The translations under genes and the position numbers were made by a program. Positions 33-36,243 of a stretch of 64,000 bases of DNA are shown one piece after another (position 1 is the first letter of the stretch; each line of letters begins with the position of its first letter). The notes under the pieces are model-generated. The model was not told where the DNA came from. It searched no databases and saw nothing but the letters and a program-made list of their open reading frames with translations. The DNA is from Planctomycetaceae bacterium. Lineage in GTDB: Bacteria; Planctomycetota; Phycisphaerae; Tepidisphaerales; Tepidisphaeraceae. The stretch spans positions 1 to 64,000 of the forward strand of contig JAIYCY010000034.1 in assembly GCA_027487775.1 (NCBI GenBank), in the 5' to 3' direction.

Positions 33-859
33 CCTTCCGCGTTCATCAGAACGCGGCCCCATTGAAGCCAGTGTGTTCATGGCGTTGGGGATGGCTCAAC
101 GCGGACCTTCCGCGTTCATCAGAACGCGGCCCCATTGAAGCCCGTGTCCGCGTGGCGCGTCGGCATCGACGCGGATGGCCTTCCGCGTTCATCAGAACGC
201 GGCCCCATTGAAGCGATCCGCGTTCCGAGCAGTAGAGATTGAGCAACCCTCCTTCCGCGTTCATCAGAACGCGGCCCCATTGAAGCCAGAATAAACGGCT
301 TGACCGCACCATCGGTACGGACCTTCCGCGTTCATCAGAACGCGGCCCCATTGAAGCGTACTCCGACGCTTTGAGTGTGCCGGATGCAACGGCCCTTCCG
401 CGTTCATCAGAACGCGGCCCCATTGAAGCCGGATCGGTCGCCCCAGTCGCCGCCGGCAACGTACTCCTTCCGCGTTCATCAGAACGCGGCCCCATTGAAG
501 CCCGCGCAAATGCTTTCGGGCGGCAGCGCGAAATCGACCTTCCGCGTTCATCAGAACGCGGCCCCATTGAAGCTGGACATCCGAGGCAACGTCATCGAGG
601 CCGGTATCCCTTCCGCGTTCATCAGAACGCGGCCCCATTGAAGCAGAGTGCCACGTCCACTGTGGCTCGGGGTAGAGTTCGCGGACCTTCCGCGTTCATC
701 AGAACGCGGCCCCATTGAAGCGGGTGGTCTCCTTTCGGAACGCATCGCCGACGCCGCCCTTCCGCGTTCATCAGAACGCGGCCCCATTGAAGCGATCGCG
801 TCGTCTTTCAGCCGGCACACTCGCACGCCGTCCTTCCGCGTTCATCAGAACGCGGCCCC
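33..859 (+). CRISPR. CRISPR array, leader-distal end (11 full repeats plus 1 truncated)
   Basis: Identical 36-bp repeats start at 33, 106, 179, 251, 322, 394, 466, 538, 609, 686 and 758. A twelfth copy at 832-859 keeps 28 bases and loses its last 8. The eleven spacers are 35-38 nt, except one of 41 nt (645-685). Each repeat holds a perfect 8-bp hairpin, CCGCGTTC-ATCA-GAACGCGG, and ends in ATTGAAGC, like the 3' end of many type I repeats. The degenerate last copy and the ATTGAAGC end both suggest transcription left to right, with the leader and cas genes off the left edge. No cas gene is visible, so the subtype cannot be assigned. Confidence 0.98.
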
Positions 860-1308
860 GCGGCGGCGCACGTGGCGCGGCCACCTGACTCTGATTCGGT
901 CACAGGGGCGTCATCAGGCTGACGTGCAGCCCGTCGCTCGACCGCCGGCTGGAACAGGCTCGCCTGGTCCTTCTCCGTCGGAACGAACTCGATCCAATCT
1001 ATCTCCCGGCCCATGCACCGCTCAAGCGTCTCCAGAACCAGGCAGAGCGGCATGTGCGTCTTTCGTGCAATCGTCTCCGGCGTGTGCGGCGTGCCACTGG
1101 TTTTGAGCAGCACGCCCCGCTCCGGACTTTTGCTGGCCAGCAGCGCGATGGCCACGAAACAGCCGTAGTGCGATGGCCCTCGCGGATGATCGAGCAGCGT
1201 GAGATACCCGTCCCCATCCTGTTTGTTGGGGAAGGCCAGCCAGCGAAGATCCTTGATCTCGCGTGAGCGATTGTTTTCGTGGCTGTCCCACTGCTTGATG
1301 CGGTACAT
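808..1308 (-). CDS. Phage-type protein whose 3' end runs into the CRISPR array (166 aa, probably truncated)
   Basis: The start MYRIKQWDSHENNRSREIKDL and the block FPNKQDGDGYLTLLDHP (about residues 27-43) resemble the N-terminal part of proteins found in phage and prophage replication regions, which often carry this PNK-DGDGY stretch ahead of a helical DNA-binding part. That family link is from memory and unproven. The ATG at 1306-1308 is preceded by GGGAG. The last residues (GPRSDERGR) are translated from the terminal CRISPR repeat, and the stop codon lies inside the last spacer. The original C-terminus has therefore been replaced by array sequence, and the gene is probably a remnant. Confidence 0.6.
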   Translation of the reverse strand: MYRIKQWDSHENNRSREIKDLRWLAFPNKQDGDGYLTLLDHPRGPSHYGCFVAIALLASKSPERGVLLKTSGTPHTPETIARKTHMPLCLVLETLERCMGREIDWIEFVPTEKDQASLFQPAVERRAARQPDDAPVTESESGGRATCAAAGPRSDERGRTACECAG

Positions 1309-1976: not shown

Positions 1977-2639
1977 TCAGATGCCTTGTCGAAGGTCGCG
2001 GGGATCGAGGGGTAGTTTGGATTGATTGAGGTCCGCCCACATCGCGGCCTCGGCGTTGAGCGGGCTTTGGATGTTGTAGGCCTGGTAGGCGATCATCTCG
2101 GCGACGCGAAGCACCAGATCGCCCAGCCGCTCGCCGGCTGACCAGTGATCGCCGATGCAGATGCTGACCTTGTCGATGTTCGGATGAAAGACTGGCGTGA
2201 GCATCCGACATCGCGGGGCCGACCTCGGATACTCGCTCGTCAACTCGATTCGCATCACATGCCGGTCCGACGGCTGAATGTTTCCGCTCCGATCAGGCCC
2301 ATGCACCGTGCCACGGACACGCAGTTCGATTTCGAAAGCGGTGGGCGGATCGCCTTCGATGTGTGATAGCTTGGCGACGGGATGTTCCTCGGTGAACCAC
2401 GCTCGCAGCGCATCGGCATCTGCGCGCACGCGTCGTGTTCGCAACACCCCGCCGCTGATCGGCGCAACACGCGCGGGCTCGCCCGCTCCCGCTGATCCCA
2501 TCGACTTCACCTCAGGACTCGATTCCGATCGCAACGGAACCATCAACGACGCCCCGCACGCACACCGCGCTCCACGCCCTGCCAGAGCCTCGGCGACGGC
2601 GTACTGTTTTCCGCACACACCGCACGCAAATCGAATCAT
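1977..2639 (-). CDS. E2-like ubiquitin-conjugating enzyme with N-terminal zinc ribbon (220 aa)
   Basis: Residues 6-28 form a small zinc ribbon (C6xxC9 ... C26xC28). Residues from about 70 onward carry a UBC fold: a YPRSAP segment, then HPNI (152-155), the candidate catalytic cysteine C161 in VSICIGDHW, a downstream Trp and the helix leading to QSPLN. HPN followed by a Cys some seven residues later is the E2 active-site signature. E2 enzymes receive the ubiquitin-like protein from E1 as a thioester and pass it to a lysine. The ATG at 2637-2639 overlaps the stop of the RING-type gene as ATGA, so I chose it over an upstream start 126 bases earlier. It is the last gene of the operon. Confidence 0.9.
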   Translation of the reverse strand: MIRFACGVCGKQYAVAEALAGRGARCACGASLMVPLRSESSPEVKSMGSAGAGEPARVAPISGGVLRTRRVRADADALRAWFTEEHPVAKLSHIEGDPPTAFEIELRVRGTVHGPDRSGNIQPSDRHVMRIELTSEYPRSAPRCRMLTPVFHPNIDKVSICIGDHWSAGERLGDLVLRVAEMIAYQAYNIQSPLNAEAAMWADLNQSKLPLDPRDLRQGI

Positions 2640-3565
2640 CGCAAGCCTCCGATCCACCAGCCGATCGATACACCCACGCCCGCAATCCCCAGTAACACCA
2701 GCGCCACATACATCGCAACGCCCGCGCGGATTCGCCTCACGAGCCAGAACACTAGCAGTCCCCAAGCAAGGGCGCCAAAGGCCATCATCCCCAGCAAACC
2801 GAGCAGCACGATCTGTGCCCAGCGCAGCGTTCGATGGTCATCCGAGGCCGATTCCGAAGATGAATCAACCATCGGCTCAGAATCGGCTTCGGCGATGATC
2901 GTTTCGCTGATTGCCACATCACTCAAATCGATTGGGGGTTGAGCGCCGCAGCCGAAGGTGGCGCAGCTTCCGAGTTCGGCGTGACAGTCGGCGTGATGCA
3001 CGCTGAGGCATCGCGGGCAGACCCAGATCGCCTCGCCCGGCTTGATGTCGCTATGACAAGCACCGCAGGATTGCCTGGCCTGTTGAAGCGTGGACGGCCG
3101 CCATTCGATCGGGCCGTCGCACGCCTTGCATCGGACGATCGCGCGCGTGTCGTGCAGCGGAACAAAACCGACACGCCCGCATCGACAACGCACGAGATGC
3201 CCGCCTTCGCTCTGATCTCCCGCCGGAATCTCAAAGTTGGCGGGCACTTCGCCGATGAAAAAGTGTGCGCGAACGCGACCAAACCGCAGCGCCTGCGCGT
3301 GTCGCAGATCGATCGATGTCGCGTCGTCAGGCCGACCGTCGCGCGTCGGCTTGATCGACCTATTGACAGCGCTGTGATCGATGAATCGCCAGCCTTCGTC
3401 GTTCGGCTCGATCGTTGCGTGAATGCGAGAGACGGTCGGATGAGCGATGACGATGTCGCATTGTCGGTCGCGTCCGATTGTGGTGGCGCGCTCGATCGTG
3501 TGCACGAGCGGGCCGTTGGGCATGAGCATGAGCAGCGTCGCTTGCGTGGTGGTCGTCCTGTTCAT
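2636..3565 (-). CDS. FHA - zinc ribbon - RING-type treble clef - 2 TM protein, candidate E3 ligase (309 aa)
   Basis: Residues 1-105 are an FHA domain with the phosphothreonine-binding residues in place (G31-R32, then S46-R-I-H49). A zinc ribbon follows (C127xC129, C146xxC149). Next is an eight-ligand cross-brace pattern typical of RING fingers: C167xxC170, C183xxC186, H190/H191, C194, C201, C206. Two hydrophobic helices (about 250-275 and 283-305) anchor the C-terminus. Prokaryotic RING families with transmembrane helices are known beside E1, E2 and JAB genes, and this protein fits that description. It probably recruits the E2 at the membrane and reads phosphorylated partners. Start and stop overlap both neighbours by ATGA, indicating translational coupling. 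Confidence 0.85.
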   Translation of the reverse strand: MNRTTTTQATLLMLMPNGPLVHTIERATTIGRDRQCDIVIAHPTVSRIHATIEPNDEGWRFIDHSAVNRSIKPTRDGRPDDATSIDLRHAQALRFGRVRAHFFIGEVPANFEIPAGDQSEGGHLVRCRCGRVGFVPLHDTRAIVRCKACDGPIEWRPSTLQQARQSCGACHSDIKPGEAIWVCPRCLSVHHADCHAELGSCATFGCGAQPPIDLSDVAISETIIAEADSEPMVDSSSESASDDHRTLRWAQIVLLGLLGMMAFGALAWGLLVFWLVRRIRAGVAMYVALVLLGIAGVGVSIGWWIGGLR

Positions 3566-4821
3566 GACGATGCTCCTCGCGTTTCAAAGACGAGGGTCGT
3601 CTGACCGACGTCAATGCGATCGCCGTGGCGGAGGCGGGCGCGGGCGACCGGGCGATCATTGAGCTTTGTCGGTGAGCCCATCGGAAGATTCTCGATCTCA
3701 AAGCCTTCCCGCGTGCGATGAATGGCGGCGTGTCTTCGGCCGACCGTCGGGTCTTTGAAGAGGTAGACGTGACTCATCGGAGACGAACCGATGAATGTCG
3801 GATCGCGATAAAGAATGAACTGCTTGCCCGCGATCAGCCCACGCGCCACGCGAAGCCAGCCGCGCTTGGTCGCGCTCTCGATCGCGCCCCAGGCAAGGCC
3901 CGTCGCCCCGCCCAGCACCAGCAACGCGATCAGGCGCGACACAGTTGCCTGATCCATGCCCATCGCACGCTCGATCGGAACCACGAGCGCCCCACCAACG
4001 CATCCGCCCACGAGTCCGCCGAGCATGCCGACGATCGTCCGCTTGCCGCTTCGCATCACGATGCCGGGCGCAAGGCCAATGAAGAGACCTAGAAGCCCGT
4101 AAATGATCGCATCCCGCAGAACCCGCATCCCGAGCGTGGCAGAGAGAGGATCGCTGCCAATCAGCGCGTCGGAGATGCGGTCTCCTGCCAACGCCGCTAT
4201 CGCCCCTCCCAATAGCCCTGCTATCGCGCCCACGCTCGCGCTGATCGTCGCACCGGCGGAGTTACGCTCGATCACACGCTCCGCCGACGAAAGGGCCAAG
4301 CCGATCAGCACCGCCGCGCACGCATAGGTCAACAGCTCCGCCGTCCGATCGCGCTCACGCTCGGCTTTCGCCAGTTCGTTCAACCGCACCGCTCGCCCGC
4401 CTGCGTCCAGCGATGGATCCGTCTGTATCGCAAAATAGGGATTGCCCGCGCCCGTCCGAACTCGCAATTCCCGCGCACGCATCGCGCGATCGTCGCTCAA
4501 TCTCCCGTCCAGCCGCGCTCGCTCGATCGATTCCAGATCGTTCATCATCATCCGCGCTTCGGCACGAATGTCCGGACGAACGCCCAGCAATGTCCCTGCG
4601 CCCCAGCCCAACAAGCCCCCCAAAAGCCCCGCCAAACAAAGATAAAATGCAGGCCTGAACCACCACGCCGGACGCGACTTCACCGGCGCGATCACCTCGG
4701 CCGATTCGTAATGACGCTTGGTCCCACGCACCCGGTCAAGCTCCGCCAGACGCGCATCCACCTTCGCATCCGCGATCTCGTCGGTCGTGATCTTGATCTT
4801 CGGCTGTTCCATCTCGCTCAT
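3562..4821 (-). CDS. Multi-spanning membrane protein with C-terminal FHA domain (419 aa)
   Basis: A charged N-terminus of about 55 residues precedes a first membrane helix. Glycine-rich helices follow (GLLGGLLGWGAG, later GMLGGLVGG), about six or seven in total, with a polar loop after the first. The last 95 residues form an FHA-like fold. However, the usual GR is GS and the usual SxxH is GRRH, so phosphothreonine binding may be weakened. It sits between the JAMM and RING-type genes in the ubiquitin-like operon and could be a scaffold. I chose ATG 4819-4821 (MSEMEQPK), 8 nt after the upstream stop. An in-frame start at 4887 would lie inside the JAMM gene. Confidence 0.75.
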   Translation of the reverse strand: MSEMEQPKIKITTDEIADAKVDARLAELDRVRGTKRHYESAEVIAPVKSRPAWWFRPAFYLCLAGLLGGLLGWGAGTLLGVRPDIRAEARMMMNDLESIERARLDGRLSDDRAMRARELRVRTGAGNPYFAIQTDPSLDAGGRAVRLNELAKAERERDRTAELLTYACAAVLIGLALSSAERVIERNSAGATISASVGAIAGLLGGAIAALAGDRISDALIGSDPLSATLGMRVLRDAIIYGLLGLFIGLAPGIVMRSGKRTIVGMLGGLVGGCVGGALVVPIERAMGMDQATVSRLIALLVLGGATGLAWGAIESATKRGWLRVARGLIAGKQFILYRDPTFIGSSPMSHVYLFKDPTVGRRHAAIHRTREGFEIENLPMGSPTKLNDRPVARARLRHGDRIDVGQTTLVFETRGASS

Positions 4822-4829
4822 CGTCCCGT

Positions 4830-5471
4830 TCAATTCCCAGTCCAAATCAACCACCCATACACCACGCACGCCACGCCGATCATGCACAACATCATCACCG
4901 CCGCATCCGTCAGCCGCTGCGTCGTCGTTGCAGGTGCTTCCTTTGCCAAGGGCAGCACCTTCGGCGCGTCACGCCGAACAAGCTCCTCCTCATGCCATAC
5001 GAAACTCCCCGCATCACCCGCCACCGGATCAACCACCAACGCTGTCATATGCGGCTGTTCAAAAAAGTTCCGACAAATGAAAACGTCCATGTCCGACAAA
5101 AACACACCAAACCCGGGATGCGAGTGATACCAACCCACCACGCTCGCCCCCGCATGCTTCTGGTCTATCTCCCGATGAATCTCCGCCCACGCCTCGCCCG
5201 TGAACGTCACATGCCCCGCGCCAGTCGTCGCCCGCAATGCCGGCACATAACCCTCCACCCACAACACGGCCCGCCCTGACTCGACTCGCAATTCGCCCAG
5301 CAACACCCCGCCCACCTCGCGATCCGTCACGCTCCGACAATGCGCAACAATCCCCTGCCACACCTCATCGCCGTACCTCACATCCATCGCCCCGTCCGCT
5401 GGTGGCTTCCGGTGCGTCCGCGCTTCGGCTGATTCCCGCGGGCGTCGCTCGCGTTTCTTCTTTACGCCCAT
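4830..5471 (-). CDS. JAMM/JAB-family metallopeptidase, tail-anchored (213 aa)
   Basis: The full JAMM signature is present: the upstream glutamate E52 (REVGG), then H116-S-H118-P, S126 and D129 (HSHPGFGVFLSDMD). This predicts an active zinc isopeptidase of the deubiquitinase type. A hydrophobic helix at about 188-208 followed by only a few residues predicts a C-terminal tail anchor, placing the catalytic domain in the cytoplasm. Its likely jobs are to trim the C-terminal extension of the ubiquitin-like protein and to remove it from targets. The start overlaps the end of the E1 gene by 10 nt. Confidence 0.9.
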   Translation of the reverse strand: MGVKKKRERRPRESAEARTHRKPPADGAMDVRYGDEVWQGIVAHCRSVTDREVGGVLLGELRVESGRAVLWVEGYVPALRATTGAGHVTFTGEAWAEIHREIDQKHAGASVVGWYHSHPGFGVFLSDMDVFICRNFFEQPHMTALVVDPVAGDAGSFVWHEEELVRRDAPKVLPLAKEAPATTTQRLTDAAVMMLCMIGVACVVYGWLIWTGN

Positions 5472-6724
5472 GTCAGCCCCCTGTCATGCAACGGGCCCAG
5501 CACTGCCGACCCATCACCCGCAAGCTCCAGACCGATCGCGCGGTCTTCCTTTCGCGCGACCACCACGTCAAACCGCGGCACGCCCATCTCCGCAAGCCTG
5601 CGATCTCCATAAGGCGACCCCCGTTCCATTTGATGCACAATCGTCGCCTCGCGCACTCGCCCGCAGTCGCACATCGCCTCGCCCACACGCACACGCGACA
5701 GCGCCCTCCCCACCCAATCGATCTTGCCGCAAGCACAAGCAAACCGCGTCACCAGATCACGCCCCACATCGATCACCGCCCCTTCGCCCAAGAGGTCCTG
5801 CGCCAGCTCCAGCAATTCACTCACCGTCACATCGCCTGATCCACCATCCAATTCGACGATCTCGCTCAACGTCTCGTGTGCAAGGCACGTCGGATTACGC
5901 ATGTAGCGCACGCGATCGGTCTCCAACGACAGACCACGAAACACAAACGCCTCGGCAGGGCTGACCGGCATGCCGTGCAGCCATTTGACCGCCTCCTGCA
6001 CCTCGATCGCTCCGATGATCGACGAAACCGTCGGTGTCGTCGGCGTGTGCCCGGTCTGCATCTGCTCACGGCTGAGCAGCGCACAACTACGCCTCTGCGC
6101 CAACAGCTGCCAGTCGCGCTCGCCCAGCGTGCATTCATAGCATGCGTTCTGATTCGCCGGATCAGGGATGAACGTGCGCGCGATGCCGTCGAGTTGCTCG
6201 ATCGCGCCGTCGATGAACGGCTTACCGAATCGCCAGGCCATACGATTCAAATGCAGCCGCGCTTCTCGATTATCCAAACCCCCGACGATCAGGTCCGCCC
6301 AGCGAAAAATGCCCGCGCCGACCTCGCCGCAAACGTCGGCGGTCATCCCGATTGCAGAACTGCCGGGGAATATCTCACGCGCCCTCAGGGCTGCGGTCTC
6401 AGCCTTCATCTTGCCGATGTCATCCTCACGAAACAGCACCGATCGCGCAAGGTTCGACATTTCGATCCGGTCCAGATCAATGATCATGATCTTCCCGATC
6501 CCGAGCAGCGAAAGATTCTTCACAATCTCATTGCCCAACGCACCCGCGCCCACCACCACCAATCGCGCCGCCGACAACGTCTCCTGCTTCCACCAATGAA
6601 TCTGACGCAAACGCGTAAATCGATCATCCACGCCATCCGCGCGTGAATCCGAGGCTGACCTCTCCGCGCGCGGCTCGATCGCGCCGGCGTCGTCGATCGT
6701 GATGCGGATGGGGTCGCTCGACAT
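5462..6724 (-). CDS. E1-like ThiF-fold activating enzyme (420 aa)
   Basis: This is a Rossmann-type adenylation domain with the nucleotide loop GAGALG (59-64), the acidic ribose contact in IIDLDRIEMSNL and the conserved RSVLF segment. C195xxC198 is the first half of the ThiF zinc site. C214 (RRSCALLS), ahead of GHTPTTPTVSSIIGA, is in the position expected for the E1 catalytic cysteine. A second cysteine cluster, C330xC332 ... C352xC354, forms a C-terminal zinc ribbon. The enzyme should adenylate the ubiquitin-like protein encoded just upstream and hand it to the E2. AGGA precedes the ATG at 6722-6724. Confidence 0.92.
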   Translation of the reverse strand: MSSDPIRITIDDAGAIEPRAERSASDSRADGVDDRFTRLRQIHWWKQETLSAARLVVVGAGALGNEIVKNLSLLGIGKIMIIDLDRIEMSNLARSVLFREDDIGKMKAETAALRAREIFPGSSAIGMTADVCGEVGAGIFRWADLIVGGLDNREARLHLNRMAWRFGKPFIDGAIEQLDGIARTFIPDPANQNACYECTLGERDWQLLAQRRSCALLSREQMQTGHTPTTPTVSSIIGAIEVQEAVKWLHGMPVSPAEAFVFRGLSLETDRVRYMRNPTCLAHETLSEIVELDGGSGDVTVSELLELAQDLLGEGAVIDVGRDLVTRFACACGKIDWVGRALSRVRVGEAMCDCGRVREATIVHQMERGSPYGDRRLAEMGVPRFDVVVARKEDRAIGLELAGDGSAVLGPLHDRGLTWA

Positions 6725-6761
6725 GATGATTCCTAATCAGCCCTGCCAGGTGCAAACGCGA

Positions 6762-7079
6762 TCATTCCAACGCAGCGGATCCGAATTCAATGCAGCCTGA
6801 TCTGATCCTCCGCCCCGCCGTGATCTCAGGAACCAGCCGCAGCACATCCCCGCTCGCCACGCCCGCTTCCTTCAAGGTCTGCGATTCCAGCAACTGCCTG
6901 CCCGTCGTGCGATGCTGCAATCGATAGCTCAGCAATTGCCCGTCAGGACCGAGTTGCGGAAACTTCAGCCGCTCAATCAGTACTGCAACCAATCGCGAGA
7001 TCGGCGCGTCACCCGGCACTTCCACTGGCTGCTTCTTCGTCCCGGTCGCGTCGTGAATTTCGATCGAAAGATTCGACAT
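6762..7079 (-). CDS. YukD/EsaB-like ubiquitin-like protein, first gene of the operon (105 aa)
   Basis: Residues 1-86 read as a beta-grasp domain: strand LSIEIHDATG, helix DAPISRLVAVLIERL, then LSYRLQHRTTGRQLLESQTL and the closing SGDVLRLVPEI. This is the pattern of YukD-type ubiquitin-like proteins. The domain ends ITAG (G89), followed by 16 more residues containing a second glycine (G95) and a cysteine (C96). There is no terminal GG, so the C-terminus probably needs trimming before activation, presumably by the JAMM enzyme. A very good Shine-Dalgarno (AAGGAG) precedes the ATG. It is followed after 37 nt by the E1 gene. Confidence 0.82.
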   Translation of the reverse strand: MSNLSIEIHDATGTKKQPVEVPGDAPISRLVAVLIERLKFPQLGPDGQLLSYRLQHRTTGRQLLESQTLKEAGVASGDVLRLVPEITAGRRIRSGCIEFGSAALE

Positions 7080-7625: not shown

Positions 7626-9959
7626 TTGACTGATGATCTGAACATTTCGCGTGAGCCCCAGGCGTTATCAACGCGCAGCGTGCAACCCTGGCTCCCGCGC
7701 GCTGTGGCGTGGGGAATCGCAGGGGCGATCGTAGGATCGCTCGCCGGGGCGATATGGACGGCTGCTGCGCCCAAGACCTATCGCGCCGGTGCGAGTCTGC
7801 TCATCGAACGACGAACCGCCGGCACGGAGGGCATTCTCGGTGCGAACCCAAACGCGCCAGATGCCGCCGACGTGCCTGAATCAACCGAAGCCAAAGATTC
7901 CAACCCATCGACATCAGAGATCAGTCGCGACATCGATTTCGATCGAGATGTGGCAGAGAGTCAGATTGATGTACTGAAGTCGGCGGCGGTGCTGGCGCCC
8001 GTGGTGGCGGACCTTGAGCCGGAGATGTTGCAGTTCTTCAGAGCTTCGGGCGATCCGATCGGTCTGCTGCGCGACCGGTTGGCGGCGCAAGTCGGTGCGT
8101 CGGGCGGCGTGGTGCGTGTCCATCTGTCGAGCCGGGGCGAACTGGCGATGCTGGGCGAGGAGTTGCCTCGCGTCTTGGATGCAGTGGTCGATAGCTTTTT
8201 GAGTTACCACGATCGCCGCAACGACGAAGCCGCCGCTGCCATTCGCAACAAACTGGCGGGCGAACTGGAGGAAGCTCAACGCGGACTGCGGGCGATCGAG
8301 ACTGATTTGGCTCACCATCGCAACTCCACCGCGCCGAGCAGCGATCGCGGGCGCCTTCGAGAACGCTTTTCCACACTCGAAGGCGTTTTGGTCGCCGCTG
8401 AAGAAAAACTCGAAGCCGCTCGAATGCGCTATGACCAGAGCGTGCAACGCGCTGGCGTGGAGCGCGACGCACTCGACGCGGCCGAACTCGAAGCCGCGAT
8501 GGTCAACAGCGAAAGCGACGAGGACGCCCGAGTCGGCGAAATCGACGCGCTGCGGCGGCAACTGGATCAACTCGCAAAGAACTATCTGCCCAATCATCCG
8601 AGCGTGATCCGCGCACGACAGCGATTGAAACAGGTGGCGCTTGCAGACGTCGGCTTTACACGCCTCGAATGGCAGCAGGCAGGGCAACGCGTCAAGGATT
8701 TGAGCAGTCAGATCGAGTCGGTCGCTCGAAGCGTGGATCGTGCAGACGCCGACGCACGGGAGGAATCGAGGTTGCAGGATGAAGTGGATCGACGCAGAGA
8801 GGTGGTGAACTCGCTCGACCGAACCCTACGTGAACAGGTCGCGCGAGCAAGGCTCGGGTCGGTGGCGGTCGAAACGCTCGGACCGGCGTCGCTGGATGTC
8901 ATGCGCGATCCGCCCACGCCCCGCATGAATCAGCTCGTGCCGGTGGGTGCAGGCGCGGGGGCTGGCCTGGGACTTCTCATGGCGACGATCGGCTGGCTCG
9001 CGTCGGGGGGCGGGTCGGGATGGAGTGCGGGCGCAGGCTCGAATCGGGCGATTCGGTCGCGCGATGTGGAGGCGATGGAACGCGAAAACCTTGGTGGGAA
9101 AAATGCCGACGGCGCTGCGCGAGTGGGGACGCAGGCGCGCAGCGCGGGGGATCTTAGGGAGGGACGACGTTCGGGCACGCAGCAATCCCAGGATGCAGGC
9201 CGACCAGGCGATGGTCGAGGCCTGCTGGAGCATATGAAGTTTCTCGGCAGCATGCCCGTGGCTGCGGGTCAGTCGCTCTTGGAGGCGAGCTGGTCGAGCG
9301 AGGTCGATCCCGCCGGGGTGACGAGCCGCGCAACACGCGCGCTGCGGAAACGGATCGAGATCGGCGGGCTCTTGCCCGCGACACTCGCGGTGGTGCCCGT
9401 CGAATCGTCGTCGGAAGGGATGGTGGTGGCATCGAATCTCGCAAGTCTTTTGGCGAGCGAAGGTAGACGCGTGTTGCTGGTGGATGCAGGGATCGATCGG
9501 GGCGTGATGGAACGTGTGCACGAGGTGGTGAAAGGCGTTCCCGGGTTGGCGGAAGTGTTGTCTGAGCGTGCGGAAATCGACACGTCCGCGCGGTCGAGCG
9601 GAGTCGCCGGACTGGACGTGATGCGGGCGGGTGTCATCGGATCGACGGAGGCGAAGCCCGGTGCAACGGGGGAAGAAGCCGGCCGCGGGGTCAGGGATTT
9701 GCTCGACTCGCCTCGCATGGGATTGTTCCTGACCGAGTCGGCGGCCCGGTATGACCATGTGATTTTCAGTTGTCCTCCGGTAGAGTCAGACGACGACGCA
9801 AGACTTGTGGCGGCGTTGACGGATGCGACAATCGTGGTGGCCCGAGCGGGGGTGACGAGCCGCTCCAAAGTGGCTCAGGCACGAGACTTGCTCCTCATGC
9901 TGGCAGCGAATGTGCTTGGATTGGTCATTTGCGATGAGTTTGCCGGTTCTGATGACTGA
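7626..9959 (+). CDS. Wzz-type chain-length protein fused to a degenerate tyrosine-kinase domain (777 aa)
   Basis: The layout is that of polysaccharide co-polymerases with a BY-kinase. A membrane helix lies at about 28-47, a long coiled coil from about 200 to 420, the PRMN segment and a second helix at about 437-458, then a P-loop-like domain from about 575. The nucleotide-binding motifs are eroded. Where Walker A should read GKS/T there is VESSSEGMV. The Walker B aspartate is lost (VIFSCPPV), and no C-terminal tyrosine cluster is seen. LLVDAG (about 617-622) keeps the Walker A' aspartate. It probably controls exopolysaccharide length without kinase activity. The start is TTG, preceded by GAGAG. 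Confidence 0.85.
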   Translation: MTDDLNISREPQALSTRSVQPWLPRAVAWGIAGAIVGSLAGAIWTAAAPKTYRAGASLLIERRTAGTEGILGANPNAPDAADVPESTEAKDSNPSTSEISRDIDFDRDVAESQIDVLKSAAVLAPVVADLEPEMLQFFRASGDPIGLLRDRLAAQVGASGGVVRVHLSSRGELAMLGEELPRVLDAVVDSFLSYHDRRNDEAAAAIRNKLAGELEEAQRGLRAIETDLAHHRNSTAPSSDRGRLRERFSTLEGVLVAAEEKLEAARMRYDQSVQRAGVERDALDAAELEAAMVNSESDEDARVGEIDALRRQLDQLAKNYLPNHPSVIRARQRLKQVALADVGFTRLEWQQAGQRVKDLSSQIESVARSVDRADADAREESRLQDEVDRRREVVNSLDRTLREQVARARLGSVAVETLGPASLDVMRDPPTPRMNQLVPVGAGAGAGLGLLMATIGWLASGGGSGWSAGAGSNRAIRSRDVEAMERENLGGKNADGAARVGTQARSAGDLREGRRSGTQQSQDAGRPGDGRGLLEHMKFLGSMPVAAGQSLLEASWSSEVDPAGVTSRATRALRKRIEIGGLLPATLAVVPVESSSEGMVVASNLASLLASEGRRVLLVDAGIDRGVMERVHEVVKGVPGLAEVLSERAEIDTSARSSGVAGLDVMRAGVIGSTEAKPGATGEEAGRGVRDLLDSPRMGLFLTESAARYDHVIFSCPPVESDDDARLVAALTDATIVVARAGVTSRSKVAQARDLLLMLAANVLGLVICDEFAGSDD

Positions 9960-10382
9960 AGCGTTAAGGTCCGGTCAATGTTTGCCCAAAACGTATGGAG
10001 ATCCGTGAGTTTATAGTCGCTTTCGAGGCATCTCCATCCGATGCTTCGCGGGCAGTTGAGTCGATGTGCCCAATAAATGGGCATCTTGCGACGATGGTTC
10101 GACGTCCGATTACGTGCCGTGCTGGACGTGTTGCATCGGACATCGTAAGAAGGATCGTGGTGAGAAGGATCGTACGACGGGCGAAGATCTGTTCGACCGT
10201 CGGACGAAGGACGATCGGAATGAATGAACGAATGATGTCGAAGGACCTATTTGTTGGAGAAATCAAAGTTTGTGACAGTCGGCCTTGAGTGATTGGTCCG
10301 TCTGTTCGATGAATGCGTTAGCAGGATGCGAAGGTTTTGGAGAGGCCTTCGTATCGAGTGGATGTCAGGAAGGGAGAAGAAA
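9960..10382. other. Gene-free stretch between wzz-type and sugar-transferase genes
   Basis: I see no convincing gene. The sequence AGAAGGATCGT occurs twice within about 15 bases near 10150. Short open frames here have no recognisable features. The Shine-Dalgarno for the next gene (GGAG at 10373-10376) closes the stretch. Confidence 0.4.
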
Positions 10383-12017
10383 ATGCAAGGATCACACCCG
10401 CGCGACGGCCAAGTGCCGCCGGCGCGTAAGACAAATTCGACCACGCGCCTGACCCCCGCACCCGCGCCTCATCGATCCGGCCAAGATCGAACTGGCCAAG
10501 ATCGAACTGGCCAAGATCGAACTGGCCGGGCAACTCAAGACGCGATCACGCAACCCGCGACGTCTAACCATGGAACTGCACAATCTCTAAGCACATTCTC
10601 TTCTCTCAGCAGACAGTCTCCACTCAGCAAACATTCACCGAGCCATCACGGGCGACCTGCCCCAACCAACCCTTCGTCCAGACATCAATCCACAAACCCA
10701 ATGCCCGACCTCGATATCCACGTCCCGGCCCGACGCAGTCTCGCCGAAATCTTCAATGCCGAACAAATGGGACACGTCCTACGCCGCGAGCGCGGACGAT
10801 GCGATCGCAGCCACTCGCAGATGTCGCTGGTCGTCCTGCGATTGCAGGACCGAACGAGCAAACGCGACCTGCAGAAACTCGCCTATCGCGTGATGAAACT
10901 CGTCCGCGAAACCGATGAGATCGGATATCTGAACGAACACACGCTGGGCGTGGTGTTGCCCGATACCGATCCGATCGGCGCGTCGATCTTCGTGTCGCGA
11001 ATCAAACAGGTCACGCAAGGCCGCGCCTGGGACCCGACGTGCGTCGTGTATGCCTATCCAGAGGCCCCTGTCGCTCCATCAAACGACGACGAGAACCATC
11101 AGCCCCCGACCGGCGGGCCCCGCAGGCCGAATCGGACCACCAGCAGCCCGGACGATTCCGGCATGCCGCTCGACACCTCGGACCTCTTCGCAGGACCCAA
11201 CGCACAACCGCTCAGCGATCCGCTGGCCAACGCACAACCCGGCAAATCGCAATCCAAACCGCCAGGCCATTCGGATCGATCGATTGATTCAAAACATTCC
11301 GAAGTTTCAGTTATGAGCGAACATGACTCCGCGATCGTTCATCGCGAACCGACCTACGCCGACGATCCGCCCATCGCTGCCGTCAAGATCAAGCCGCTGA
11401 ATGACCTCTTCCGCCAACCCCTGCCTTGGTGGAAACGCGCACTCGACATCGCCGTCTCAGGATCTGCGATCGTCGCCCTAAGCCCCGTGATGGCGGCCGC
11501 CGCGCTCGCCATCCGGCTCGACTCGCCCGGACCCGTCGTCTTCCGACAACAACGCGCCGGTATCGCAGGCCGACCGTTCACCATCTTCAAGTTCCGCACC
11601 ATGTGCATCGACGCTGAAGCCAAACAACGCGCACTCAAAAAGTTCAGCGAACAAGACGGACCCGCCTTCAAAATCAAAAACGACCCACGCATCACACGCA
11701 TCGGGCGATTCCTCCGCAAATCCTCCATCGACGAACTCCCACAACTCTTCAATATCTTCAACGGAACAATGACACTCGTCGGCCCGCGACCGCTCCCGAT
11801 GCACGAGGCCGAAGCATGCCGGGGATGGCATGCCGCTCGCCACGACGTCACCCCCGGACTCACCTGCATCTGGCAAGTCCACGGACGAAGTCGAGTCAAA
11901 TTCGAAGAATGGATGCGCATGGACATGCGCTACGCACGCAAACGAAGCCTCTGGCGCGATCTCAAACTCGTCCTCAGCACCGTGCCCGCCGTACTCCTTA
12001 GACGCGGCGCCAACTAA
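10383..12017 (+). CDS. Undecaprenyl-phosphate sugar transferase with GGDEF-like N-terminal region (544 aa)
   Basis: The C-terminal 200 residues are a bacterial sugar transferase. They show WWKRALDIAVS with its membrane helix, then FRQQRAGIAG, FKFRTMCIDAE, RKSSIDELPQL, LVGPRP and TPGLTCIWQVHGRSR. Such enzymes start polysaccharide synthesis by moving a sugar phosphate to undecaprenyl phosphate. A central segment from MPDLD (about residue 107) to about 220 resembles a GGDEF-fold domain without the GGDEF signature. The first 106 residues are disordered and include a 15-nt repeat. I used ATG 10383 because of its GGAG at 6 nt. ATG 10701 (438 aa) is the alternative, as codon use before it looks non-coding. 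Confidence 0.85.
   Translation: MQGSHPRDGQVPPARKTNSTTRLTPAPAPHRSGQDRTGQDRTGQDRTGRATQDAITQPATSNHGTAQSLSTFSSLSRQSPLSKHSPSHHGRPAPTNPSSRHQSTNPMPDLDIHVPARRSLAEIFNAEQMGHVLRRERGRCDRSHSQMSLVVLRLQDRTSKRDLQKLAYRVMKLVRETDEIGYLNEHTLGVVLPDTDPIGASIFVSRIKQVTQGRAWDPTCVVYAYPEAPVAPSNDDENHQPPTGGPRRPNRTTSSPDDSGMPLDTSDLFAGPNAQPLSDPLANAQPGKSQSKPPGHSDRSIDSKHSEVSVMSEHDSAIVHREPTYADDPPIAAVKIKPLNDLFRQPLPWWKRALDIAVSGSAIVALSPVMAAAALAIRLDSPGPVVFRQQRAGIAGRPFTIFKFRTMCIDAEAKQRALKKFSEQDGPAFKIKNDPRITRIGRFLRKSSIDELPQLFNIFNGTMTLVGPRPLPMHEAEACRGWHAARHDVTPGLTCIWQVHGRSRVKFEEWMRMDMRYARKRSLWRDLKLVLSTVPAVLLRRGAN
10479..10523. repeat. Tandem repeat, 3 x 15 bp
   Basis: GGCCAAGATCGAACT occurs three times in perfect tandem at 10479, 10494 and 10509. 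If the long form of the sugar transferase is made, it encodes three copies of the five-residue unit QDRTG. Otherwise it lies in the leader of that gene. Confidence 0.9.
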
Positions 12018-34277: not shown

Positions 34278-34842
34278 TTGAACAAAGGGCAGCGGGTTCG
34301 AATCCCATCGCTCGGCGGTTACGCAGGTGATGGAAATCAAAACAAAATCCCGCGGGCAATCTTTGCGCCTCGCCCTTGGCATCAAATGCGAAACGGTATT
34401 ATCAGCCACGCGTCCGGGCGCGAATTCTGCGGTGCAGTGCGCTAAAGTTTGCGCGGCCATCGGTACGAAACTTACATCGGACACTGCGACATCGACCCGA
34501 ACGCCGCGTCGCTCTCAGGAGCTGAAGAGGCGAATTCAAATGGGTCGATCGAGCGGTGCCGATCCACGGACGGATCGGTGAAGCGAGTCGACAGGGATGT
34601 TGGCGTGCCGGGCGTGTCCTATGCCCGTGCCGTTGCCCTTCTATTCGCCCCATCCACAAACAATGCCGACGGGGATCCTCGGCGGTTCGCTTGAGCAGTC
34701 TGCTCCGTGACGGTTCACGGATGCCGACGCCCGGTCTGAAGCCGGCGCGCTCGGCACGTTGATGCTGCTTGGTGGGCCAACGCACGAAAGTGACGGTCGC
34801 GCACGGATTCGCGCACCGTTTATCTCCATCACGGAGGATCGC
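34278..34842. other. Long non-coding stretch upstream of flagellin
   Basis: This spacer of 565 bp should contain the flagellin promoter and leader. I looked for sigma-28 (TAAA ... GCCGATAA) and sigma-54 (GG ... GC) elements. TAAAGTTT at 34443 lacks a matching -10, and a GGCACG near 34750 has the wrong spacing. Open frames here carry no recognisable domains. A fragment resembling a tRNA T-arm near 34294 has no cloverleaf around it. Confidence 0.45.
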
Positions 34843-36243
34843 ATGTCGCGCATCAATACGAACATCAATTCCATGCAGGCCATTCGCAGCTTCGGCAAAA
34901 ACAACGCCGACCTCGCGACACGCCTGCAAAGGCTCTCCACGGGCCTTCGCATCAACACCGGCAAGGACGCCCCCGCCGGTCTGATCGCCAGTGAAACCCT
35001 GCGATCGGAAATCCAGGGAATCACCCAGGCCATCGACAACACCAACCGCGCCAACAACGTCATCAACACCGCCGAAGGCGCGCTCTCCGAAGTCAACGCG
35101 CTACTGCTCGAAATCCAAAGCCTCACCATTGAAGCCGCCAACACCGGCGCACTCTCACGGGCGGAAATCGAAGCAAACCAGCTCCAGCTCGATCAAATCC
35201 TCAATTCCATCAACCGAATCGCCAACACAACTCAGTTCGCTGGGATCAAACTCCTCGACGGCTCTCTCGATTACACCACCAGCGGCGTCACAAGCACCGC
35301 CATCGATATCGTCACCATCAACAGCGCCAAACTCCCGGACAACGGATTCACCACCGTCAGCGTCGAAGTGACCGCTAGCGCCCAGCTCGGCGCTGTCACC
35401 TACTCAGGCGGTGCCGTCACCGGGCCCGTCACCATCGAAGTCGCTGGGGTTGATGGCAGTGAACAAATCTCCCTCGCCTCCGGCGCCACCGCCAGCAACA
35501 TCGTCGCCGCGGTCAATCAGCTCGTCGCCGCCACTGGCGTGAGCGCAACGGTCGACGCAGGAAACGTCGTCTTCAACACCACGTCGTTCGGATCCGAAAG
35601 CTTCGTCACTGTCCGAACCGTCAGCGGAAGCTTCTCCACCGATGTCACCACCGACAACGGCGAAGACGCCGGCGTCAACATCAACGGTGCCGCCGCAGAC
35701 GTCAAAGGAAACGTCGCCAGCCTCCGAACCTCAAGCCTCGAACTCAGCCTCACGCTCGACCGAGCCTTCGCTCAGTCGTCCAGCAGCACCGATTTCGCCA
35801 TCAACGGCGGCGGAGCGAAATTCCAGATCGGCTCCGAGGTCAACCGCAACGGTCAGATCAACATCGGCATCCAGGGCATCGCCACCACCCGACTCGGCGA
35901 TAACGTCGTCGGCTACATCAGCTCGCTCCGCAACGGCGGGGAAAACAGCCTCGTCGGTGGAAACACGCTGCAGGCCCAGAAGATCCTCAAGGCCGCCATC
36001 AGTCAGGTCGCAACCCTCCGCGGTCGACTTGGTGCGATCCAGAAGAACGTACTCGAGACCAACGTCAACAGCCTCGGCGTCACCCTCGAAAACGTCACCG
36101 CCAGCGAAAGCGCCATCCGAGACGCCGACTTCGCCAAGGAAACCGCCGCTCTCACAAGAGCGCAGATCCTCACGCAGGCCAACACCTCGGTCCTCTCGCA
36201 GGCCAACACCACACCGCAGAACGTCCTCTCGCTCCTGCGGTAA
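34843..36243 (+). CDS. fliC: Flagellin (466 aa)
   Basis: The conserved N-terminal D0/D1 region MSRINTNINSMQAIRSFGKN ... LSTGLRINTGKDAPAGLIAS and the C-terminal D1/D0 region IRDADFAKETAALTRAQIL ... LSQANTTPQNVLSLLR are complete. The middle (about 155-330) is a variable Thr/Val/Ala-rich domain. Flagellin polymerises into the filament after export by the flagellar type III system. GGAGG lies 7 nt before the ATG. A GAAA-loop terminator follows directly, so the gene is monocistronic. No other flagellar gene is nearby. Confidence 0.97.
   Translation: MSRINTNINSMQAIRSFGKNNADLATRLQRLSTGLRINTGKDAPAGLIASETLRSEIQGITQAIDNTNRANNVINTAEGALSEVNALLLEIQSLTIEAANTGALSRAEIEANQLQLDQILNSINRIANTTQFAGIKLLDGSLDYTTSGVTSTAIDIVTINSAKLPDNGFTTVSVEVTASAQLGAVTYSGGAVTGPVTIEVAGVDGSEQISLASGATASNIVAAVNQLVAATGVSATVDAGNVVFNTTSFGSESFVTVRTVSGSFSTDVTTDNGEDAGVNINGAAADVKGNVASLRTSSLELSLTLDRAFAQSSSSTDFAINGGGAKFQIGSEVNRNGQINIGIQGIATTRLGDNVVGYISSLRNGGENSLVGGNTLQAQKILKAAISQVATLRGRLGAIQKNVLETNVNSLGVTLENVTASESAIRDADFAKETAALTRAQILTQANTSVLSQANTTPQNVLSLLR

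Follow-up and report, generated by a model that had tools for sequence, protein, structure and literature searches.

In 2011, Burroughs, Iyer and Aravind reportedly predicted bacterial operons in which a Prok-RING protein is combined with a YukD-like ubiquitin-like protein (Ubl), an E1, an E2 and a JAB peptidase. Here I compare an operon of six genes from a Planctomycetaceae bacterium, located in the first 64 kb (the window) of a 136,650-base contig (JAIYCY010000034.1), with these and other described systems. The source genome measures 4.1 Mb and is 94.7% complete, and its closest named relatives are metagenome-assembled genomes (MAGs) from the Phycisphaerales/Tepidisphaeraceae. Relatives of the Caldiarchaeum operon are stated to occur in Actinobacteria, Planctomycetes and Acidobacteria (PMC4197634, citing the 2011 work), and complete operons in bacteria are mentioned elsewhere (PMC5654768). 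As both sources mention such bacterial operons, the present one is a member of a kind already known by prediction, and an earlier reading of this DNA (the original prediction) had already stated that Ubl-E1-E2-JAB operons, some with prokaryotic RING fingers, are known from comparative genomics. All components of the 2011 type are present, namely a YukD-like Ubl, an E1, a canonical E2, a JAB protein and a Prok-RING_1 domain; Planctomycetes are among the carriers of that type (PMC4197634), and the RING found here likewise shows the C4HC3 order and the long last spacing that PMC11354881 gives for prokaryotic RINGs.

The operon of Caldiarchaeum subterraneum also clusters Ubl, E1, E2, RING and an Rpn11-like JAMM protein, and its Ubl is likewise made as a tailed precursor (PMC5654768, PMC6043591). 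However, the archaeal ubiquitin ends with GG and the archaeal RING is small, whereas the YukD-like Ubl described here ends with ITAG, the RING and JAMM proteins have membrane segments, and there is an additional membrane protein with an FHA domain. The Bil systems (BilABCD) share Ubl, E1, E2 and JAMM, the JAMM peptidase opening the modifier (PMC11354881), but BilA has two ubiquitin folds and no RING belongs to the four-gene set, in contrast to the single YukD-like Ubl with RING and FHA proteins in this operon. A two-domain BilA accompanied by BilB-D was not found, and among the six proteins there is just a weak match to the BilD profile. The Bub operons are bacterial ubiquitination-like operons too; the regulators CapW, CapH+CapP and CapK+CapS reportedly stand beside many of them (PMC13373217), and none of these was recognised at this locus. 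The type VIIb secretion system (T7SSb) also has a YukD-like Ubl together with a membrane protein whose FHA domain lost the phospho-binding residues (PMC9600267), but here no secretion ATPase was recognised and a full set of conjugation enzymes is present instead.

It is likely that this operon encodes a bacterial cascade for protein modification that is anchored in the membrane and, having a canonical E2, belongs to the eukaryote-like type, acting by the steps proposed below. The six genes, all on the minus strand, follow the order Ubl, E1, JAB, FHA1, FHA2-RING, E2 (Table 1). The full set of parts, with the predicted catalytic residues intact, is conserved as one operon, and judging from these sequences the operon would conjugate its Ubl. 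The Pfam profile matches exceed chance expectation for the operon proteins, with FHA matched twice (3e-10 each, in FHA1 and FHA2-RING), and hydropathy indicates one membrane segment in JAB, six in FHA1 and two in FHA2-RING. Most of what had been read earlier from the letters alone holds: an open reading frame check confirmed six frames on the minus strand at this place, the junction overlaps are 10, 4 and 4 nt as described, and the residues named for E1, JAB, E2 and RING are all present as numbered. The profiles for YukD, ThiF, JAB, Prok-RING_1 and UBC, proposed at that time for a search, all matched, and together with the hydropathy segments they support the claimed membrane-tied set of Ubl, E1, E2, RING and JAMM.

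The modifier itself carries a PEITAG motif that is invariant in 39 of 39 distinct Ubl homologues. Thirteen of these stop exactly at the glycine of the motif, and the remainder extend 1 to 51 residues beyond it with no common sequence; in the present Ubl, 16 residues follow (RRIRSGCIEFGSAALE). Because the motif is invariant and either terminal or followed by an unconserved tail, the mature Ubl should comprise residues 1-89 and end at G89. In Caldiarchaeum the tail of pro-ubiquitin is trimmed by an Rpn11 homologue (PMC5654768, PMC6043591), and by analogy the JAMM protein would remove the tail here. No other single observation speaks as strongly for conjugation of this YukD-like protein as the conservation of PEITAG.

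The enzymes are well conserved. In the E1, the cysteine at position 214 is retained in every relative E1 that is complete across that stretch, and the C-terminal region is rich in cysteines. The JAMM protein has the catalytic set E52, H116, H118, S126 and D129, its HxHPx6SxxD motif is conserved in 46/46 relatives, and a C-terminal membrane segment is indicated by hydropathy at residues 191-209. HPN (H152-P153-N154) and C161 of the E2 are invariant in an alignment of 70 rows, and the E2 of this operon deviates at just five strongly conserved positions. A UBC fold in the 220-aa protein, on which the original prediction had staked itself, was found: the AlphaFold 2 (AF2) model shows it with a mean predicted local distance difference test (pLDDT) score of 89.9, and the best PDB matches of the model are eukaryotic E2s (target TM-score about 0.6). 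Among solved structures, the nearest are ubiquitin enzymes of eukaryotes and of Caldiarchaeum and not Bil proteins, with UBE2C and UBE2N nearest to the E2, the active adenylation half of UBA7/UBA1 nearest to the E1 and the Caldiarchaeum Rpn11 (CsRpn11) nearest to the JAMM protein, though PDB sampling is uneven, so that these nearest structures hint at ancestry and do not amount to a phylogeny.

The source genome holds a single E2. In three relatives (G010, G001 and G012), a second UBC-like domain lacking the catalytic cysteine starts frames of 848-984 residues (stop to stop), whose long C-terminal part may be a coiled coil; these proteins resemble E2 variants. Genome G010 also has an extra E2 locus with two RING proteins in addition to its six-gene operon (L034 / L096, G010:C386).

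The RING candidate of this operon, the sole Prok-RING_1 match in the source genome, has all eight zinc ligands (C167/C170/C183/C186/H191/C194/C201/C206), in the order C4HC3 and invariant in 53 rows. The fusion of FHA2 to the RING was found in 26 frames, mostly from the same and nearby families, and the FHA fold is confirmed by AF2 and Foldseek. In many operons a second RING-type protein, of approximately 430-470 residues and with the pattern CxxC...HHxxCW...GC, is located between the first RING and the E2.

The original prediction had also placed the pathway under phosphorylation gating, which stands for one of the two FHA proteins at most. In FHA domains, an arginine contacts the phosphothreonine and the SRxH motif takes part in binding. 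FHA2, lineage-limited and RING-fused, keeps these motifs (GR in 12/13, SRxH in nearly all). FHA1, on the other hand, present in nearly all relatives' operons, has a non-canonical C-terminal domain after six membrane segments, in which neither GR nor SRxH is kept: at the position of the phosphothreonine-contacting arginine, 52/52 sequences have S, A or C, and of SRxH the serine is mostly gone while the histidine is retained. The phospho-binding residues are likewise unconserved in the FHA domains of T7SSb YukB/EssC (PMC9600267). As the arginine is absent throughout, as in these T7SSb domains, FHA1 is probably a phosphorylation-independent scaffold, and phosphorylation gating could therefore apply at most to the RING-fused FHA. 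The source genome has 13 Ser/Thr kinase matches. A motif search for a Ser/Thr kinase beside the operon gave just three relative loci, and a kinase as standard operon partner was rejected because it was seen at these three only.

Taken together, the proposed cascade would start with the membrane-bound JAMM protein trimming the tailed Ubl after G89, whereupon the E1 would adenylate this glycine, carry the Ubl on C214 and pass it to C161 of the E2. The membrane RING protein may then deliver the charged E2 to substrates at the inner membrane, and its N-terminal FHA domain could, in this lineage, select substrates bearing phosphothreonine. FHA1 would serve as the phosphorylation-independent membrane scaffold, and the JAMM protein could reverse the tag. 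No match to a proteasome or HslV was found in the source genome, and so the tag would probably be regulatory or be fed to another protease.

In order to place the operon among its relatives, 84,980 species genomes were scanned, which gave 100 relatives of which 80 were kept. The operon set is common in its own family and scattered elsewhere, since the UBC family (E2) is present in 19/26 genomes of the own family (including that of the window) and, for the searched relatives beyond this family, in 1/75 genomes, while of 392 genomes drawn evenly from the phylum 43 match the E2 alignment, several through the zinc ribbon only. The order Ubl-E1-JAB-FHA1-RING(-RING)-E2 is found again and again in Planctomycetota, and it also occurs in MAGs from a number of other phyla; their labels include Sumerlaeota, Rifleibacterium, Holophagaceae, Kiritimatiellae, Prosthecobacter and Bacillota, although MAG contigs may be mislabelled. 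Because of this recurrence, the composition is not rare, contrary to what had been supposed. In the E1 tree the phyla are interleaved; horizontal transfer is not claimed from it, since the branches are weakly supported and MAGs make up many of the rows. The complete planctomycete genome CP087563.1 (syqfu) carries two different six-gene operons (loci L067 and L124), one with a zinc-ribbon E2 and FHA-RING, the other of a shorter type.

Next to the Ubl gene lies a divergent gene for a Wzz-like protein, an arrangement observed at nine loci (the window and eight relatives), with the gene near the operon in two more and at none of the loci outside the own family. The relatives' proteins match Wzz, AAA_31 and GNVR; the protein in the window lacks both a Pfam match and a Walker A motif, yet it is homologous to those relatives. 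The gene that follows it in the window encodes a sugar transferase, homologues of which adjoin relatives' operons as well. An all-against-all search for other conserved neighbours yielded largest clusters that resembled antisense frames of operon genes, and only the Wzz-like gene stood out. Its presence fits inheritance in place and gives no more than a hint of a link with the envelope. A tRNA-Ala adjoins the E2 in the window, but a tRNA-linked insertion was rejected, as no tRNA is found by the operon at 20 relative loci. The same contig further holds a flagellin gene (Flagellin_N and _C) at 34759-36243.

Table 1. Positions of the operon genes, their key sites and other features in the window (in loci of relatives where marked L).
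Feature	Position	Strand	Remarks
YukD-like Ubl	6762..7079	-	105 aa; Pfam YukD 44.3 bits, 3e-11
Predicted Ubl pro-peptide, residues 90-105 (RRIRSGCIEFGSAALE)	6765..6812	-	Unconserved tails past PEITAG
E1, ThiF/E1 fold	5462..6724	-	420 aa; Pfam ThiF 162 bits, 1e-47
E1 candidate catalytic C214 codon	6083-6085	-	
JAMM/JAB deconjugase	4830..5471	-	213 aa; Pfam JAB 3e-9
FHA1 membrane protein, scaffold candidate	3562..4821	-	419 aa counted from ATG; Pfam FHA / Yop-YscD_cpl
FHA2-RING membrane protein, E3 candidate	2636..3565	-	309 aa; FHA, zinc ribbon, Prok-RING_1 (C4HC3)
RING domain C167-C206 in FHA2-RING	2948..3067	-	
E2, N-terminal zinc ribbon and UBC domain	1977..2639	-	220 aa; Pfam UQ_con 41.3 bits, 1.5e-10
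E2 catalytic C161 codon	2157-2159	-	
Wzz/tyrosine-autokinase-like protein	7626..9959	+	Divergent neighbour
Bacterial sugar transferase, exopolysaccharide initiation type	10293..12017	+	Pfam Bac_transf 213 bits
CRISPR array	33-867		36-nt repeat (CCTTCCGCGTTCATCAGAACGCGGCCCCATTGAAGC) in 12 copies, the last one degenerate; start of contig
Cys-less UBC-like frames	L045:7399-9942, L046:9137-11959, L047:6847-9798		Away from operon
Loci with second RING-type protein	L074, L076, L083, L085, L091, L113, L125 and others		

Several observations weigh against the proposed cascade. The modifier ends with a single glycine (AG) and not with GG, and YukD itself was reported to be unconjugated (PMC1779556). 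A conjugate, a thioester or a trimming event was not found described for this bacterial group in the literature consulted. The link with polysaccharide genes may simply reflect common descent within a single family. Furthermore, this operon copy is atypical: its RING has H195 and S200 where 52/52 relatives have W195 and G200, position 169 is alanine where 45/52 relatives have isoleucine or valine, so that none of these family-conserved non-ligand residues is kept, and its E1 sits on a branch of 1.96, the longest in the E1 tree. Since W195 and G200 are changed in this copy, E3 activity of its RING is doubtful, and with the long E1 branch added, the copy may be altered or partly decayed. Alternatively, then, the cascade may work as far as the E2 while the RING encoded in this genome would have lost effective E3 activity, with conjugation being independent of an E3 or slow, or with the operon decaying in this lineage; the Prok-RING_1 match of 29.8 bits, just 0.7 bits above the cut-off of 29.1, also points this way. 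I consider this rather unlikely, as the eight zinc ligands, all catalytic residues, every reading frame and the order of the overlapping genes are retained, and the E2 is little changed.

The phosphorylation-gated membrane ubiquitination in phage defence that the original prediction proposed seems improbable. It could draw on the phosphothreonine-binding residues of FHA2, on the Bil operons, which are counted, as bacterial Ubl systems, among the anti-phage pathways (PMC13373217), and on a CRISPR array (clustered regularly interspaced short palindromic repeats) about 1 kb from the operon. However, the array lies at the contig edge and nothing links it to the operon, homologues of the E2 or the operon were not found in viral contigs, phages or plasmids, and the E2 is present in 19/26 genomes of the own family, so that defence is not supported; FHA1 is devoid of the phospho-binding arginine, PADLOC matches to E1-E2/JAB/BilD are partial and weak, and the conserved neighbour is a polysaccharide gene instead. 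As polysaccharide genes adjoin the operon, a role in the envelope or in exopolysaccharide is, within the own family, a better guess than defence, though a weak one. That the YukD-like protein belongs to a membrane assembly without being conjugated, on the model of type VII secretion, with the enzymes serving something else, would agree with its fold, with the report on YukD (PMC1779556) and with the FHA domain without phospho-binding residues in a membrane protein, shared with T7SSb YukB/EssC (PMC9600267), but it is very improbable given that the Ubl is fixed beside E1, JAMM and E2, that PEITAG is invariant with its tail free or removable, and that neither a secretion ATPase nor an ESAT-6-type gene was recognised among the neighbours examined. 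The ThiF/MoeB-like E1 might also suggest a sulphur-carrier or cofactor pathway (ThiS/MoaD-like), which I regard as highly implausible, as two additional ThiF homologues in the genome could serve cofactor synthesis and such pathways are not known to involve a canonical UBC E2 or a RING.

The membrane-anchored modification cascade remains the favoured reading, and the operon family to which it belongs is broader and more uniform than had been supposed. As a speculation that I hold with little confidence, it could represent a widespread bacterial membrane ubiquitination complex with a core of six parts, in which a non-phosphobinding FHA scaffold, membrane RING and JAMM proteins, a canonical E1-E2 relay and a YukD-derived modifier ending with ITAG would act on inner-membrane substrates such as the polysaccharide export machinery, with Cys-less E2 variants as an extra branch in some genomes. 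A small number of purified proteins would be enough to test each of the predictions, namely the G89 end, the trimming by JAMM, the phosphorylation-independent FHA1 and the altered RING. As its E1, E2 and JAMM best match solved structures from eukaryotes and Caldiarchaeum, the operon could offer a compact test system for RING-dependent ubiquitination outside the eukaryotes.

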